This document shows, piece by piece, positions 888 to 22,262 of a DNA stretch of 34,246 nt. The stretch is from the NCBI GenBank assembly GCA_020720455.1, contig DYOQ01000003.1, positions 37,045 to 71,290 of the forward strand. The letters run 5' to 3'. The notes under the pieces are model-generated. The model saw only the letters and a list, made by a program, of their open reading frames with translations. It did not search any database and was not told where the DNA came from. The position numbers were made by a program, and so were the translations under genes. The DNA is from Bdellovibrio sp. Its GTDB lineage: Bacteria > Bdellovibrionota > Bacteriovoracia > Bacteriovoracales > Bacteriovoracaceae. How positions within the stretch are numbered: the first letter of the stretch is position 1; each line of letters starts with the position of its first letter.

Positions 888-921
888 AAAAATACTGCCC
901 ATAATAGTGGGCAGTATTTTT
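888..921. terminator. Perfect 13-bp hairpin, terminator-like, outer edge of HNH element A
   Basis: AAAAATACTGCCC (888-900) is an exact reverse complement of GGGCAGTATTTTT (909-921) around an 8-nt loop. A and T tracts on both sides make it a possible bidirectional terminator. An imperfect but homologous hairpin with the same GGGC core occupies the same position outside element B (22231-22262), so it is probably part of the element and not only the terminator of a neighbour. Confidence 0.75.
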
Positions 922-967
922 ATGAATGTGTATTTATATGAATGTGTTATTTATGAATGTTTATAAA
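921..967 (+). repeat. Three iterons TATGAATG, element A
   Basis: TATGAATG starts at 921, 937 and 952, spacings of 16 and 15 bp; the first two copies continue as TATGAATGTGT. Element B has TATCAATC three times with the same 16/15 spacing and the same orientation relative to its gene. Confidence 0.75.
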
Positions 968-1295: not shown

Positions 1296-2288
1296 ATGAA
1301 AACGTTGTTAAAAAATATTAGTGATACTGAACTGCTTAGCAAAACAAAAAATTTAGTATTAAAGGAAAGAGAGCTAATTGGAGATATTATTGCTCATCTA
1401 GCAGAGATCGAAACTAGAAAACTTTACTGCGACCAAAAATATCATTCGTTATATGATTACTGTACAGAGGAGCTTGGATACACTAACGATCAGGCATACA
1501 GAAGAATCAGCGCGATGAAACTTTCAAAGCAGTTGCCACAAGTGAAAGAAAAACTTGAAAATGGTAGCATTAGTTTAAGTTCGGCCAATATGTTTTCCAC
1601 TCTAATAAAAGATGCAAAGATGGAGAAGAGTGAGCAGGTTAAAGTTTTAAATCTCATTGAGGGAAAGAGTAAAAGTGAAACGGTGACACTTTTTGATCAT
1701 ATCAGGAGCGCGAAGCAGTTACCTCCGCCAGCTAAAAAGCGAGTTGTCGTAAAGCAGACCGAAGGAAGTAAAGATGTTAGGCTTTCAGTCTCAATTTCAA
1801 AAGAGACGTTAGCGAAAATTGAGCAGGTTAAAAGTTTATATGCCAAGAAAAACAGAAGTGGCGAATCTCTCGATCTAGACAAGGTTTTGGATATAATGGC
1901 ACAAGCTGCTCTAGAAAAATATGAAGAAAGAATTGCACCAAAACAAGAGGCAAGAAAAATCAAGAGCGAAAATTTAAAAACAAAGCGAAAGGGTAGATAT
2001 ATAAGCAAGCAGACAAAATATATTGTTTATAAAAAGGCCAGTGGAAAGTGTGAACTTTGTGGTTCAATTAAAAATTTACAATATGATCATAGCGTTCCTC
2101 ATGCTAAAGGTGGAGGTAATGAACAATCAAACATCAGGTTACTATGTTCAAATTGTAATTTAAGACAAGGGGTTTTAATCTTTGGAACGAGTGCGATGAA
2201 GAGAGAAAGTGTCGGATGCTCTCGTCCTGGGACGAGAGGAGGATTAGCTAATATCGAGGGACAGGGAATGGATTCCACTCAGGGTTAG
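1296..2288 (+). CDS. DUF222-like/HNH endonuclease, copy A
   Basis: Predicted nuclease of about 330 residues. The N-terminal helical part runs from LLKNISDTELLSKTKNLV through KLYCDQKYHSLYDYC and AYRRISAMKLSKQLP, a pattern typical of DUF222-type or REP13E12-like HNH proteins. A charged linker follows. The C-terminal zinc-bound HNH fold shows CELCG, YDHSVPHAKGG, a conserved Asn (SNIRLLC) and CSNC. The start is ATG 1296, preceded by AAGGAAAAAG; the frame is open back to 1191 but that part looks like leader. Copy B (20787-21809) is a clear homologue. The last codons (SRPGTRG) are simply the right palindrome read in frame and continue into flanking DNA, so the C-terminal tail is probably not functional. 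Such genes are usually annotated only as HNH endonuclease; target and role are unknown. Confidence 0.85.
   Translation: MKTLLKNISDTELLSKTKNLVLKERELIGDIIAHLAEIETRKLYCDQKYHSLYDYCTEELGYTNDQAYRRISAMKLSKQLPQVKEKLENGSISLSSANMFSTLIKDAKMEKSEQVKVLNLIEGKSKSETVTLFDHIRSAKQLPPPAKKRVVVKQTEGSKDVRLSVSISKETLAKIEQVKSLYAKKNRSGESLDLDKVLDIMAQAALEKYEERIAPKQEARKIKSENLKTKRKGRYISKQTKYIVYKKASGKCELCGSIKNLQYDHSVPHAKGGGNEQSNIRLLCSNCNLRQGVLIFGTSAMKRESVGCSRPGTRGGLANIEGQGMDSTQG
2221..2236. repeat. Right boundary palindrome, element A
   Basis: CTCGTCCTGGGACGAG has arms CTCGTCC and GGACGAG around TG. It overlaps the last codons of the HNH gene and lies about 10 bp from the end of the minus-strand decayed frame. Confidence 0.8.
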
Positions 2289-3267
2289 CTTTAATATGTA
2301 ATACGTCATATTTTTTTCCGTTGATGATAAGTTTATCATATGAAGAGTTTCCACTAAGATCGTATGGATTGACTTCATTGTATGCATAAGCATCGTATCT
2401 CATCGCCTCAAACCGTTTAGCAAGAGCGGCCCTTAACTGCCGGAACGTCTGCTGAAAAAGTATAAGATGTAAAACAAGAAGTTTCTCCATCATCTCCGAC
2501 TACTGCGTATTCAACGGTAGTTCCTGATTTTGGAAAAGCAATGTTTTCTGTTTTGTCGCTTGACAGTTGCCTCCACTGCAATCTTCCATTCCCTTTGCTA
2601 GACTATCGTAATGATCCGCCTCTTCTTCAAATTTTTTAGCTGCCACATTGTTGGCCAGAGCATTTGCTTCTACGATTGCACCAAGAACACCGTAGGCAAT
2701 CGCTCTTTTTCCTAGAGAGTATTGCCATCCTCCAAGAGTTAAAATTTTGGTGACTGGGTTATCTACTAAAAAACCTGATTTATCTATCCCGTCAAGCTTT
2801 GCTCCTGTTGTTGTTTCTTCAACATTTTTTAATTTCTCACCATCTTCAACACCTGTTTTAAATTCATCATTCGCCATACTCTTCGCTATACATAGATTTT
2901 AGCGCGCCGTTAAGTGTCGTTTGGCAAGCAGCAGTATAAGTAAGAGGAGCAGCAGGGATAGCATGAGGAGTAAGCGTTTGCGATATTAGATTTGCTTTTT
3001 TCCCGCAGCTATTCGTTAAGTCGGTAAGCTTTTGTTTATCTGCTTTGGAACAAACAACTTTTGCACCACCAAGTTGCTCGCATCTAACCCTTTGACGTTT
3101 CCATCATACGTAGATTTTTCTCCGTATGCTAATGCAGCAGATATGGTTTCTCGAGTTTTATATTTGTCATCATCTGGTTGATTGGTGGTGGTTGTATCAT
3201 CGCTAATTGATACGCTAAAAAGTGATACTGTTGTTATTAAGCATGTAAGTACAAACAGTTTATTCAT
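2248..3267 (-). pseudogene. Decayed secreted-protein gene with alternating frames
   Basis: It starts at ATG 3267 behind GGAGCGAT with a signal peptide (MNKLFVLTCLITTVSLFSVS). Protein-like stretches then alternate between two frames: frame one to about 3080, frame two to 2889 (LGGAKVVCSKADKQKLTDL... ALKSMYSEE), frame one again to about 2545 (WQYSLGKRAIAYGVLGAIVE ... CSGGNC), frame two to 2417 (YAVVGDDGETSCFTSYTFS), and frame one to the end (KRFEAMRYDAYAYNEVNPYD). That needs about four frame switches, and frame one contains stops at 3016 and 2500. The AIAYGV/GGNC region resembles AIGYGV/GGKC in the gene at 1-787. It is read here as one inactivated paralogue. Separate small genes are less likely because only the first piece has a good ribosome binding site. 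Confidence 0.7.
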
Positions 3268-19071: not shown

Positions 19072-20386
19072 CGAATTTAGAATTAAAACAGATGCCAAGG
19101 CCGCGCTTGTTTCTATTCAGTGTGAAAAGCTACCATCTCATGCTACTAGCGTAGAGGTTACCTCGTCTCTAGCTGAGATGTGGGAATTGATGAGGACTTT
19201 AAGCATTGAGACGGTTGGAGAGTATGTTCAAGTTAAAGATACACCAAGCTCTGCTACAATTCTTGGGAGTGGAAAATTAGAAGAGATCGCAGAAGATGTA
19301 AAAACAAAAGGGGGCGACCTTTTAGTTTTTGATTTTGAACTTACTTCTGGTCAGATTAGAAACATAAAAAAGTTAACAGGACTTAGTGTCGTTGATCGTT
19401 GTCACGTTATATTAGAAATTTTTGCCAAACATGCAAGAACTAAAGAGGCCAAAATTCAGATTGAGATGGCCCGCTTAGAGTATTTACTTCCGAGGCTTTC
19501 AGGTTTTTGGAGCCATCTTTCAAGGCAAAAAGGTGGGATTGGAGTGAGAGGCGGTGAGGGTGAACAACAAATTGAGCTCGACCGAAGAATCGTTAGAAGC
19601 AGGATCGCTTATTTTAAGCGTGAGCTTGGAGTTATTGTTAAATCTCGTAAAGAGCAAAATAAACGTAGAGGCAAGAAGACTATTACCGCTGCGCTTGTTG
19701 GTTACACCAATGCTGGAAAATCTTCAGTGATGAATAGGCTATGTCAAGAGCAGGTGATTGAAGAGGACATGTTGTTTGCCACACTTGATTCTACTTATCG
19801 AATGTTAAGTCCCGATACTAAACCACCTATGGTTCTTATAGATACGGTTGGTTTTATCTCTAATTTGCCTAATACATTAATTAGTGGTTTTAAAACAACC
19901 TTGGAGTCTGCAATTGAAGCAGACCTCTTGATTGTTGTTTGTGATATTTCAAATCCATTCTTTGAGCAGCAACTAAGCGTTACTAACCAAGTTTTAGACG
20001 AGTTAAAAATTGGAGATAAGGAAAGATTTCTTGTTTTTAATAAGATTGATAAGGCAGATCCATTTACTGTTAAGCTTATGTTAAGAAAATATAGCAAAAT
20101 GAGTATTGCAGTTTCAACATTTAATCCTGAAGATATGAAACAACTTCGCTCGCAAATCATTGATTATTTTTTGAGCAAGCAAGGACATTATGACCTCTTC
20201 GTTCCGTATGCCCTTGGAGATATTCATTCAAGCATTAGGTCGCAAACAAATATCATTGGTGAAGGTAGTCATGAGAAAGGAATTTTTTATCGGATTAAGG
20301 CCCCAGATTTTATAGTTAATAGATTAAATATTGAAAAGTATATGCTAGCGTCTCCAGTTCGTGATGATCAATTAATTTTTAGATAA
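19061..20386 (+). CDS. hflX: GTPase HflX
   Basis: About 441 residues from GTG 19061, which has GGAAG upstream; a TTG at 19010 would lengthen it inside panC and is less likely. The N-terminal HflX domain contains ATILGSGKLEEI and FDFELTSGQIRN, followed by the helical linker (RLEYLLPRLSGFW, GGIGVRGGEGEQQIELDRR). The G domain has GYTNAGKSS (G1), DTVGFISNLP (G3) and NKID (G4). HflX binds ribosomes and splits or rescues stalled 70S particles under stress. It overlaps panC by 11 nt and ends the lgt-coaBC-panC-hflX run. No hairpin follows it. Confidence 0.94.
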   Translation: MLDNEFRIKTDAKAALVSIQCEKLPSHATSVEVTSSLAEMWELMRTLSIETVGEYVQVKDTPSSATILGSGKLEEIAEDVKTKGGDLLVFDFELTSGQIRNIKKLTGLSVVDRCHVILEIFAKHARTKEAKIQIEMARLEYLLPRLSGFWSHLSRQKGGIGVRGGEGEQQIELDRRIVRSRIAYFKRELGVIVKSRKEQNKRRGKKTITAALVGYTNAGKSSVMNRLCQEQVIEEDMLFATLDSTYRMLSPDTKPPMVLIDTVGFISNLPNTLISGFKTTLESAIEADLLIVVCDISNPFFEQQLSVTNQVLDELKIGDKERFLVFNKIDKADPFTVKLMLRKYSKMSIAVSTFNPEDMKQLRSQIIDYFLSKQGHYDLFVPYALGDIHSSIRSQTNIIGEGSHEKGIFYRIKAPDFIVNRLNIEKYMLASPVRDDQLIFR

Positions 20387-20786: not shown

Positions 20787-21809
20787 TTAGGCCAGTAGGT
20801 CTTTGTGCCGTTCATTTCGTCCCAGGACGAATTCTTTTTTATTGGTAATGTTAGCACCACTTTCACGTCTCATTTTCTTTACTCCAAACTCAAGAATTCC
20901 TGCTCGCAAATTACAGTTTGAGCAAAGTAGTCTGATATTTGATTCTTCACTACTTCCACCTTTAGCATGAGGGTTCAAATGATCATACTGTAAGTTTTTT
21001 GTTGAACCGCAAAGTTCACATCTCCCATCGGCCTTTTTATAAACATAATATTTCGTCTGCTTGCTTATGTATCTGCTTTTTCGATTTATCTCTTTGCTCT
21101 CTTCCTTGTTATTCTTTTTTTTTAACTCTCGTTTTGGCGCAAGCTCTTCTTTATGTTTTTCTAGCGCCGCCTGTGCCATCATGTCCAAAACCTTGTCCAG
21201 GTCGAGTGGTTGATTGCCACTGCTTTTCTTTGAATATAAATTTCTAACCTGTTCAATTTTCGCTAACGTCTCTTTTGAAATTGAGACCGAAAGCCTGATA
21301 TCCTCGGCCCCTTCAGTTTGTTTAATAACAGTTTTCTTTTTAGCAGGAGTAGGTAGTTGTTTTTCGCTCCTGATATTTTCAATGAGGGCAGCCGTCTCAC
21401 GCTTACTCTTTCCCTCGATAAGATTCAAAACCTCGACCTGCTCTGCTTTTTCCATCTTTGAATCTTTAATTAGAACTGACAACAGATTCGCCGAGCTTAA
21501 GCTGATAGTACCATTTTCAAGTTTCTCTTTTACTTGCGGCAACTGTTTTGAAAGTCTCATCGCACTGATTCGCCTATAAGCTTGATCACTAGTGTAACCA
21601 AGTTCTTCAGTGCAGTAATCGTATAGCGAATGATATTTCAGATCGCAGTAAAGTTTTCTCGTTTCAATCTCTGCTAGATGAACGATAATTTCTCCGATCA
21701 ATTCTCGCTCTTTCATTACTAATTTTTTTGTTTTGCTAAGTAGTTCAGTATCGCTAATATTTTTTAATAATATTTTCATTTTAATTTCCGTTTCCGTTTT
21801 CATTTCCAT
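20787..21809 (-). CDS. DUF222-like/HNH endonuclease, copy B
   Basis: About 340 residues from ATG 21809 (AAGGTG seven nt upstream). ATG 21779 corresponds to the first methionine of the copy A product, and the frame is open back to 21944. Domains match copy A: an N-terminal helical DUF222-like part (KLYCDLKYHSLYDYC, AYRRISAMRLSKQLP), a basic linker, and a C-terminal HNH with CELCG, YDHLNPHAKGG, SNIRLLC and CSNC. Copies differ throughout, including many silent positions, so duplication is not recent. The end of the frame reads through the right palindrome (FVLGRNE) and a few codons beyond. The product may act on the palindrome or iterons, as homing-type nucleases act near their own locus; this is inference. 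Confidence 0.85.
   Translation of the reverse strand: MEMKTETEIKMKILLKNISDTELLSKTKKLVMKERELIGEIIVHLAEIETRKLYCDLKYHSLYDYCTEELGYTSDQAYRRISAMRLSKQLPQVKEKLENGTISLSSANLLSVLIKDSKMEKAEQVEVLNLIEGKSKRETAALIENIRSEKQLPTPAKKKTVIKQTEGAEDIRLSVSISKETLAKIEQVRNLYSKKSSGNQPLDLDKVLDMMAQAALEKHKEELAPKRELKKKNNKEESKEINRKSRYISKQTKYYVYKKADGRCELCGSTKNLQYDHLNPHAKGGSSEESNIRLLCSNCNLRAGILEFGVKKMRRESGANITNKKEFVLGRNERHKDLLA
20817..20830. repeat. Right boundary palindrome, element B
   Basis: TCGTCCCAGGACGA on the plus strand, that is TCGTCCTGGGACGA along the gene, identical to the core of the right site of element A. It lies within the last codons of the HNH gene. Confidence 0.8.
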
Positions 21810-22124
21810 TCTTATCACCTTAGGTCTATTGTCAAAACGTCTTGCCAGTGCACATTTTGGCGTTTTTAATATTGAAAATCTTTTACCATATTCACTAAGT
21901 ATTTTCAAATGGCCAAAACGGTAGTGCAAAGTCAGCTTTAACATTTGCTAGTTTTTAAACTAACGTCTAGCTTGCATACAATCATTTATATGATTAAGTG
22001 TTGGCCTCTTCCTCTGAAACAGAAGCAAAATAGTTCGCAGCCTAAATTTAGCCGGTTTTTGTTAATGAAAATAATTTTTTTTCTTGATTTTTTTATTTGT
22101 TAAAATGGTTTCAAGAGGGTTTTT
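21810..22124 (-). promoter_or_regulatory. Conserved leader of HNH gene B, with dyad
   Basis: 315 nt, almost the same length as leader A. Positions 21854-21885 match 1214-1245 of copy A exactly. The dyad ATTTTCAA (21901-21908) with TTGAAAAT (21872-21879) is conserved, and here outer arms GCCAAAA (21912-21918) and TTTTGGC (21855-21861) extend it. No separate gene is seen. Confidence 0.55.
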
Positions 22125-22138
22125 TCGTCCCAGGACGA
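22125..22138. repeat. Left boundary palindrome, element B
   Basis: TCGTCCCAGGACGA on the plus strand, identical to the site at 20817-20830 and in the same orientation, so the two ends of element B are direct repeats of a near-palindrome. Confidence 0.8.
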
Positions 22139-22192
22139 GATTAGCAAAGTGTTTAACCATTATGTTGGAGTTGCACTAGAAAAAATTTTCGG

Positions 22193-22262
22193 GATTGATA
22201 AAAAACAGATTGATAAAATAACAGATTGATAAAATACCGCCCACTTTTCTGGGCACTGTTTT
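22193..22262 (-). repeat. Three iterons and hairpin outside element B
   Basis: GATTGATAAAA starts at 22193, 22208 and 22224 (TATCAATC along the gene; spacings 16 then 15 bp from the hairpin inward). The hairpin pairs AAAAT and CGCCCA (22231-22243) with TGGGC and GTTTT (22250-22262) with two internal mismatches. Order and spacing match 888-967. Confidence 0.7.

Follow-up and report, generated by a model that had tools for sequence, protein, structure and literature searches.

Two short repeat arrays that differ in concert upstream of HNH-family genes in a Bdellovibrio genome

Introduction

The iterons of theta plasmids are Rep-binding arrays (PMC4980987). Two arrays in a draft genome of Bdellovibrio sp., here called A and B, are like these iterons in that their units are short, tandem direct repeats, alike in sequence and orientation and set in AT-rich DNA at fixed spacing. 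They are unlike them in having three units, in being chromosomal and beside an HNH gene, with no Rep gene recognized, and in showing no sign of a replication role. Both arrays are in the window, which is the whole 34,246 bp stretch of DNA analysed here, from a genome assembled as a 2.7 Mb draft of 92 contigs that is 97% complete. Each array is associated with a copy of a multi-copy HNH-family gene, and it is this association, and the way in which the two arrays differ, that is considered here.

Results and Discussion

Sequence and spacing of the arrays

In array A the 8 bp unit TATGAATG is present on the forward strand at 921–928, 937–944, and 952–959. In array B the unit TATCAATC is present on the minus strand at 22224–22231, 22208–22215, and 22193–22200, the forward-strand letters being GATTGATA three times. 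All six units were read from the sequence and identified in a genome pattern search and by TRF, which detects both arrays with a period of 16. In gene orientation the spacing is 16 bp and then 15 bp in both cases, with each array upstream of its HNH gene. A previous sequence-only reading had reported three identical units per copy, in the same orientation and at this spacing, and a difference of two letters between A and B that is present in all three units of a copy; direct reading confirms both observations. The end of array A, which had been placed at 967, is 8 bp past the last unit.

Within each array the three units are identical at 8 of 8 positions. When each upstream region was dinucleotide-shuffled 300 times, the highest identity was 7/8 (A) and 6/8 (B), with none reaching 8/8. 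The repeat pattern is thus confirmed as real and non-trivial, with the units being more similar within an array than between arrays. The spacers vary inside an array, where the 8 bp core does not (Fisher p about 0.02, for a core chosen post hoc). A loose pattern, TATNAAT three times with gaps of 7–11 bp, finds only the A and B sites in the 2.7 Mb genome. As a 15/16 bp array, the strict pattern is present only at A and B among 369 genomes of the phylum, the remaining strict-pattern matches being repeats with a different unit or period, and the array pattern is not found in viral contigs.

The outer 5' module

Array A is part of a module of hairpin plus repeats, 882–970 on the forward strand, that was delimited by local alignment to its B counterpart. 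The A hairpin, AAAAATACTGCCCA-TAATAG-TGGGCAGTATTTTT (888–921), has a perfect 14 bp stem in the sequence and is like a bidirectional terminator; the RNA fold of 885–970 has a z of -4.7. Its final base is the first base of the first A repeat. The B hairpin, with a GCCCA/TGGGC core, is at 22231–22262, and a hairpin of the form GCCCA-N6-TGGGC directly adjoins the array. The homology between A and B in the approximately 88 bp upstream of the palindrome described below has a score of 42, against a shuffle maximum of 20 (z 14.4), and the two modules descend from one ancestor. Indeed, they are 75% identical between A and B, as against 64% for the leader.

The module of A adjoins the palindrome, with 11 bp between array and palindrome, while in B this distance is 54 bp and there is a segment between the two. 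Part of this sequence (22152–22196) recurs once elsewhere in the genome, on contig 25 (89%), and a search of 59 genomes gave no full-length protein homologue for it. The B array reads NHYVGVALEKIFGIDKKQIDKITD-stop, and the idea that it is the tail of a decayed gene was rejected, there being no full-length homologue in its own or 58 other genomes. The hairpin and repeats are also not a separate dispersed repeat, as there are 11 sites with the hairpin pattern and repeats only at A and B.

Two other HNH gene copies, on contigs 42 and 50 (L208 and L212), have in common a different 58 bp upstream module, which has a hairpin and no repeats. It is not significantly similar to the A/B module (z 0.4 for A with contig 50, z 2.0 for A with contig 42) and was rejected as its homologue. 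An outer 5' module thus travels with the element in some lineages, and it is to a module of this kind that the repeats belong. A short repeat, GGCCCTCTATCAGATTAGTGCATCTCCCTAATA, was also seen after the genes at two further loci (L098 and L100).

The element and its copies

There are three intact copies of the HNH-family gene in this genome, A and B in the window and C on contig 3, with fragments elsewhere. The core consists of a leader of about 310 bp followed by the HNH gene, with a palindrome at either end. In A, the 5' terminal palindrome TCGTCCCGGGACGA (971–984), identified by palindrome search and element alignment, is followed on the forward strand by a non-coding leader (985–1295) that is common to B, C, and the remnants and is 68% identical between A and C. 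The HNH-family protein core (1296–2216, forward strand; Pfam PF01844, 5e-8) is followed by the 3' terminal palindrome TCGTCCTGGGACGA (2222–2235), through which the ORF reads as far as 2288. The 5' terminal palindrome of B is TCGTCCTGGGACGA in gene orientation (22125–22138), and its gene, 77% identical to that of A, is on the minus strand (20787–21779; PF01844, 1.5e-9), with a 3' terminal palindrome at 20817–20830; the 3' palindromes of A and B were both found by palindrome search.

Sites matching TCGTCCNGGGACGA are present only at both ends of A, both ends of B, and the 3' end of C. A 13 bp form of the palindrome is found at the ends of further copies or remnants on contigs 11, 41, 42, 50, 71, and 83, and is ambiguous on contig 48. 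On contigs 11, 41, 42, 48, 71, and 83 these end palindromes are at or near the contig ends, which would suggest that near-identical HNH copies were probably collapsed in the assembly. Solitary 13 bp palindromes with no adjoining HNH gene, at 20382–20394 of contig 18 and 11286–11298 of contig 89, are possibly leftovers after loss of the element. A further palindrome site, on contig 31, is within coding sequence and appears to be a chance match.

The sequence common to all copies starts after the 5' palindrome and stops at the 3' palindrome, and the module is present only in A and B, which places the repeats outside the common core. There are no repeats upstream of C or of the 5' ends on contigs 50, 71, 42, and 83, and TRF finds no 16 bp array upstream of the HNH loci fetched from relatives. 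The repeats are therefore not a general part of the element, as they are missing from copy C, the remnants, and the relatives.

Blocks conserved in all copies, for example CATTTGAAAAT...ATTTTCAATATTAAAAAC, are seen in the leader (985–1295 in A, 21780–22124 in B); its single folds are only weakly better than those of shuffled sequence. In an Rfam search of A, RsaJ and the other matches were far below gathering scores, with none above, and were treated as chance. Searches for relatives across genome, viral, plasmid, and phage collections gave matches to the HNH domain only, and an AlphaFold prediction from two sequences has a pLDDT of 49. Related secreted-protein genes are present downstream of A (2248–3267, broken, on the opposite strand) and of C (4315–5754 of L013, on the same strand).

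Matched ends across genera

Exact words shared by the 5' and 3' flanks of an HNH copy were compared with a null of 1,878 cross-genome pairs, the maximum of which is 28.1 bits. This maximum is exceeded by B and by six other copies (L059, L070, L073, L153, L157, and L160). Copies with matched ends are found in seven genera, that of the window and those of genomes G022, G017, G016, G025, G023, and G019. The matched ends are mostly palindromes, ACACGCTCCGGAGCGTGT in G022, CGCTCCAGAGCG in G016, a CACCCTCC/GGAGGGTG hairpin in G017, and TTCTAGAGCGCCCTAGAA in G025; those of L157 are an inverted repeat. The end sequences differ from genus to genus. The palindrome of G022 has five sites in that genome and none in either the genome of the window or G017. 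The pattern is not universal, as many HNH copies in the same genomes are without matched ends. Three genomes from other families (G055, G057, and G058) have no HNH copy above the 28.1 bit maximum. At two loci of another genome (L074 and L075 of G024) the HNH gene contains a second palindrome, which precedes the sequence for the HNH domain.

Matched ends are the expected trace of a mobile unit with terminal repeats, which suggests that the HNH gene is probably mobile. It is conceivable, although we consider it doubtful, that there is a mobile family in which the HNH gene is between two copies of one palindrome, palindrome and nuclease diverge together between lineages, and outer modules have been added in some lineages; the nuclease would then recognize its own ends and move the element without a known transposase. 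No published description of HNH elements bounded by palindromes was found in the open-access literature, which is a weak negative. This wider pattern, a multi-copy HNH gene that resembles a mobile unit and has palindromic ends differing between genera, carries more weight than the arrays themselves, and it turns the question of how the element moves into a concrete one that can be tested.

Origin of the concerted difference

The two arrays are each uniform and yet different from one another. Neutral drift was simulated at the observed divergence from a uniform ancestor, the most favourable case for drift; arrays that were uniform yet different at one core site arose at a frequency of at most about 4e-5, and two differing core sites were never obtained. 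Independent neutral drift is excluded as the source of this pattern, and therefore either changes have spread between units or selection has acted.

The reading that we prefer, at a probability of about one half, is that the 15/16 bp array was in the ancestral module of A and B and that changes have since spread through it by turnover or selection. The module of hairpin and array would have been inherited by A and B from the common ancestor of a multi-copy HNH-gene element, and in each array a change first present in a single unit would then have spread to the others. The spread would be due either to local repeat turnover, in the form of slippage or of template switching from unit to unit, or to selection exerted by some DNA-binding protein that is not the HNH protein. 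The array itself would be a passenger. The core does not need it, since other copies are without an array. As to the cause, we would tentatively place turnover or conversion first, ahead of selection by such a protein. The 16/15 spacing common to both arrays speaks mildly against whole-unit replacement, as whole-unit turnover tends to scramble spacing. The sequence-only reading had offered two causes for uniformity within a copy and difference between copies, homogenization between repeats and co-evolution with a copy-specific DNA-binding protein, to be checked against the N-terminal HNH domain. The exclusion of drift bears out its inference from the pattern. The shared spacing lends homogenization no positive support, and co-evolution with the N-terminal HNH domain is unsupported, as discussed below.

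Selection through a regulator is the strongest alternative, although it falls clearly short of being probable. Here the array would serve as the operator or loading site of a regulator or other DNA-binding protein that the HNH gene does not encode, one acting for example on the neighbouring divergent secreted-protein gene, with the two-letter switch selected at all three sites in one copy. An invariant core with variable spacers is as expected for binding sites and favours this explanation, but the argument is weakened because the poly-T spacers mutate easily by slippage, so that homopolymer indels could account for their variation. The conserved 16/15 spacing, the location of both arrays, with the HNH gene on one side and a divergent secreted-protein gene on the other, and the greater identity of the module than of the leader are all consistent with such a site. 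Against this, no candidate regulator was found, no relatedness was established between the divergent genes at A and B, and the pattern is at just two sites in the genome. If the change in the array was selected, A and B would offer, within a single cell, a naturally diverged pair of DNA sites in which to see how recognition switches in step at several sites.

Binding of the array by the N-terminal domain of the HNH protein, with protein and array co-evolving copy by copy, is improbable. The proximity of gene and array, and the fact that the genes of both array-bearing copies are intact and evolve under purifying selection (dN 0.144 against dS 1.2 for the A and B genes overall), would be in keeping with it. 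No part of the protein, however, is more conserved than residues 1–125, which are 88% identical between A and B and 90% identical for both A with C and B with C, with dN of about 0.06 and dS of 0.7–1.8, including the pairs with the repeat-less C. Copy C is intact, is 84% identical to A, and has no array although its domain is equally conserved, and relatives with intact genes have no array either. Given this conserved domain, the array-less C, and the lack of arrays at every other copy examined, co-evolution with the HNH protein is unlikely; with only A and B in the data searched, there is a single comparison of arrays.

It is very unlikely indeed that the arrays are an origin of replication left by a plasmid or by a replicon that has integrated. 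They are direct repeats in AT-rich DNA, but each has just three units, of 15/16 bp, and the two places where they occur are on the chromosome, with ordinary chromosomal genes around them. No Rep-like gene was recognized by eye among the ORFs adjoining the repeats, the family-library searches having covered HNH proteins only.

Comparison with known mobile and nuclease elements

In the A and B ORFs only an HNH domain was found, where a classical insertion sequence would have a DDE transposase, and by inspection no sequence adjoining both ends of A or of B is in common that would indicate a target-site duplication. The element is like IscB and the IS200/IS605 family in that the NCBIfam IscB model matches the HNH region and there are palindromes near both ends. 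It is unlike IscB in that the match covers the HNH region only, at 34.7 and 42.4 bits against the curated cut-off of 175 for a full-length match (guided_IscB, NF040563). It is unlike IS200/IS605 in that no RNA family is above its gathering score and no match to the Y1 transposase (PF01797) is found in this 97% complete draft genome; of 7 relatives searched, 6 have this transposase. The element is also like free-standing HNH endonuclease genes of the homing type (PF01844), in that it has the HNH nuclease domain and a single genome contains several intact copies of it together with decayed fragments. It is unlike these genes in that the N-terminal domain of its protein is assigned by no library and in that it has matched terminal palindromes at both ends.
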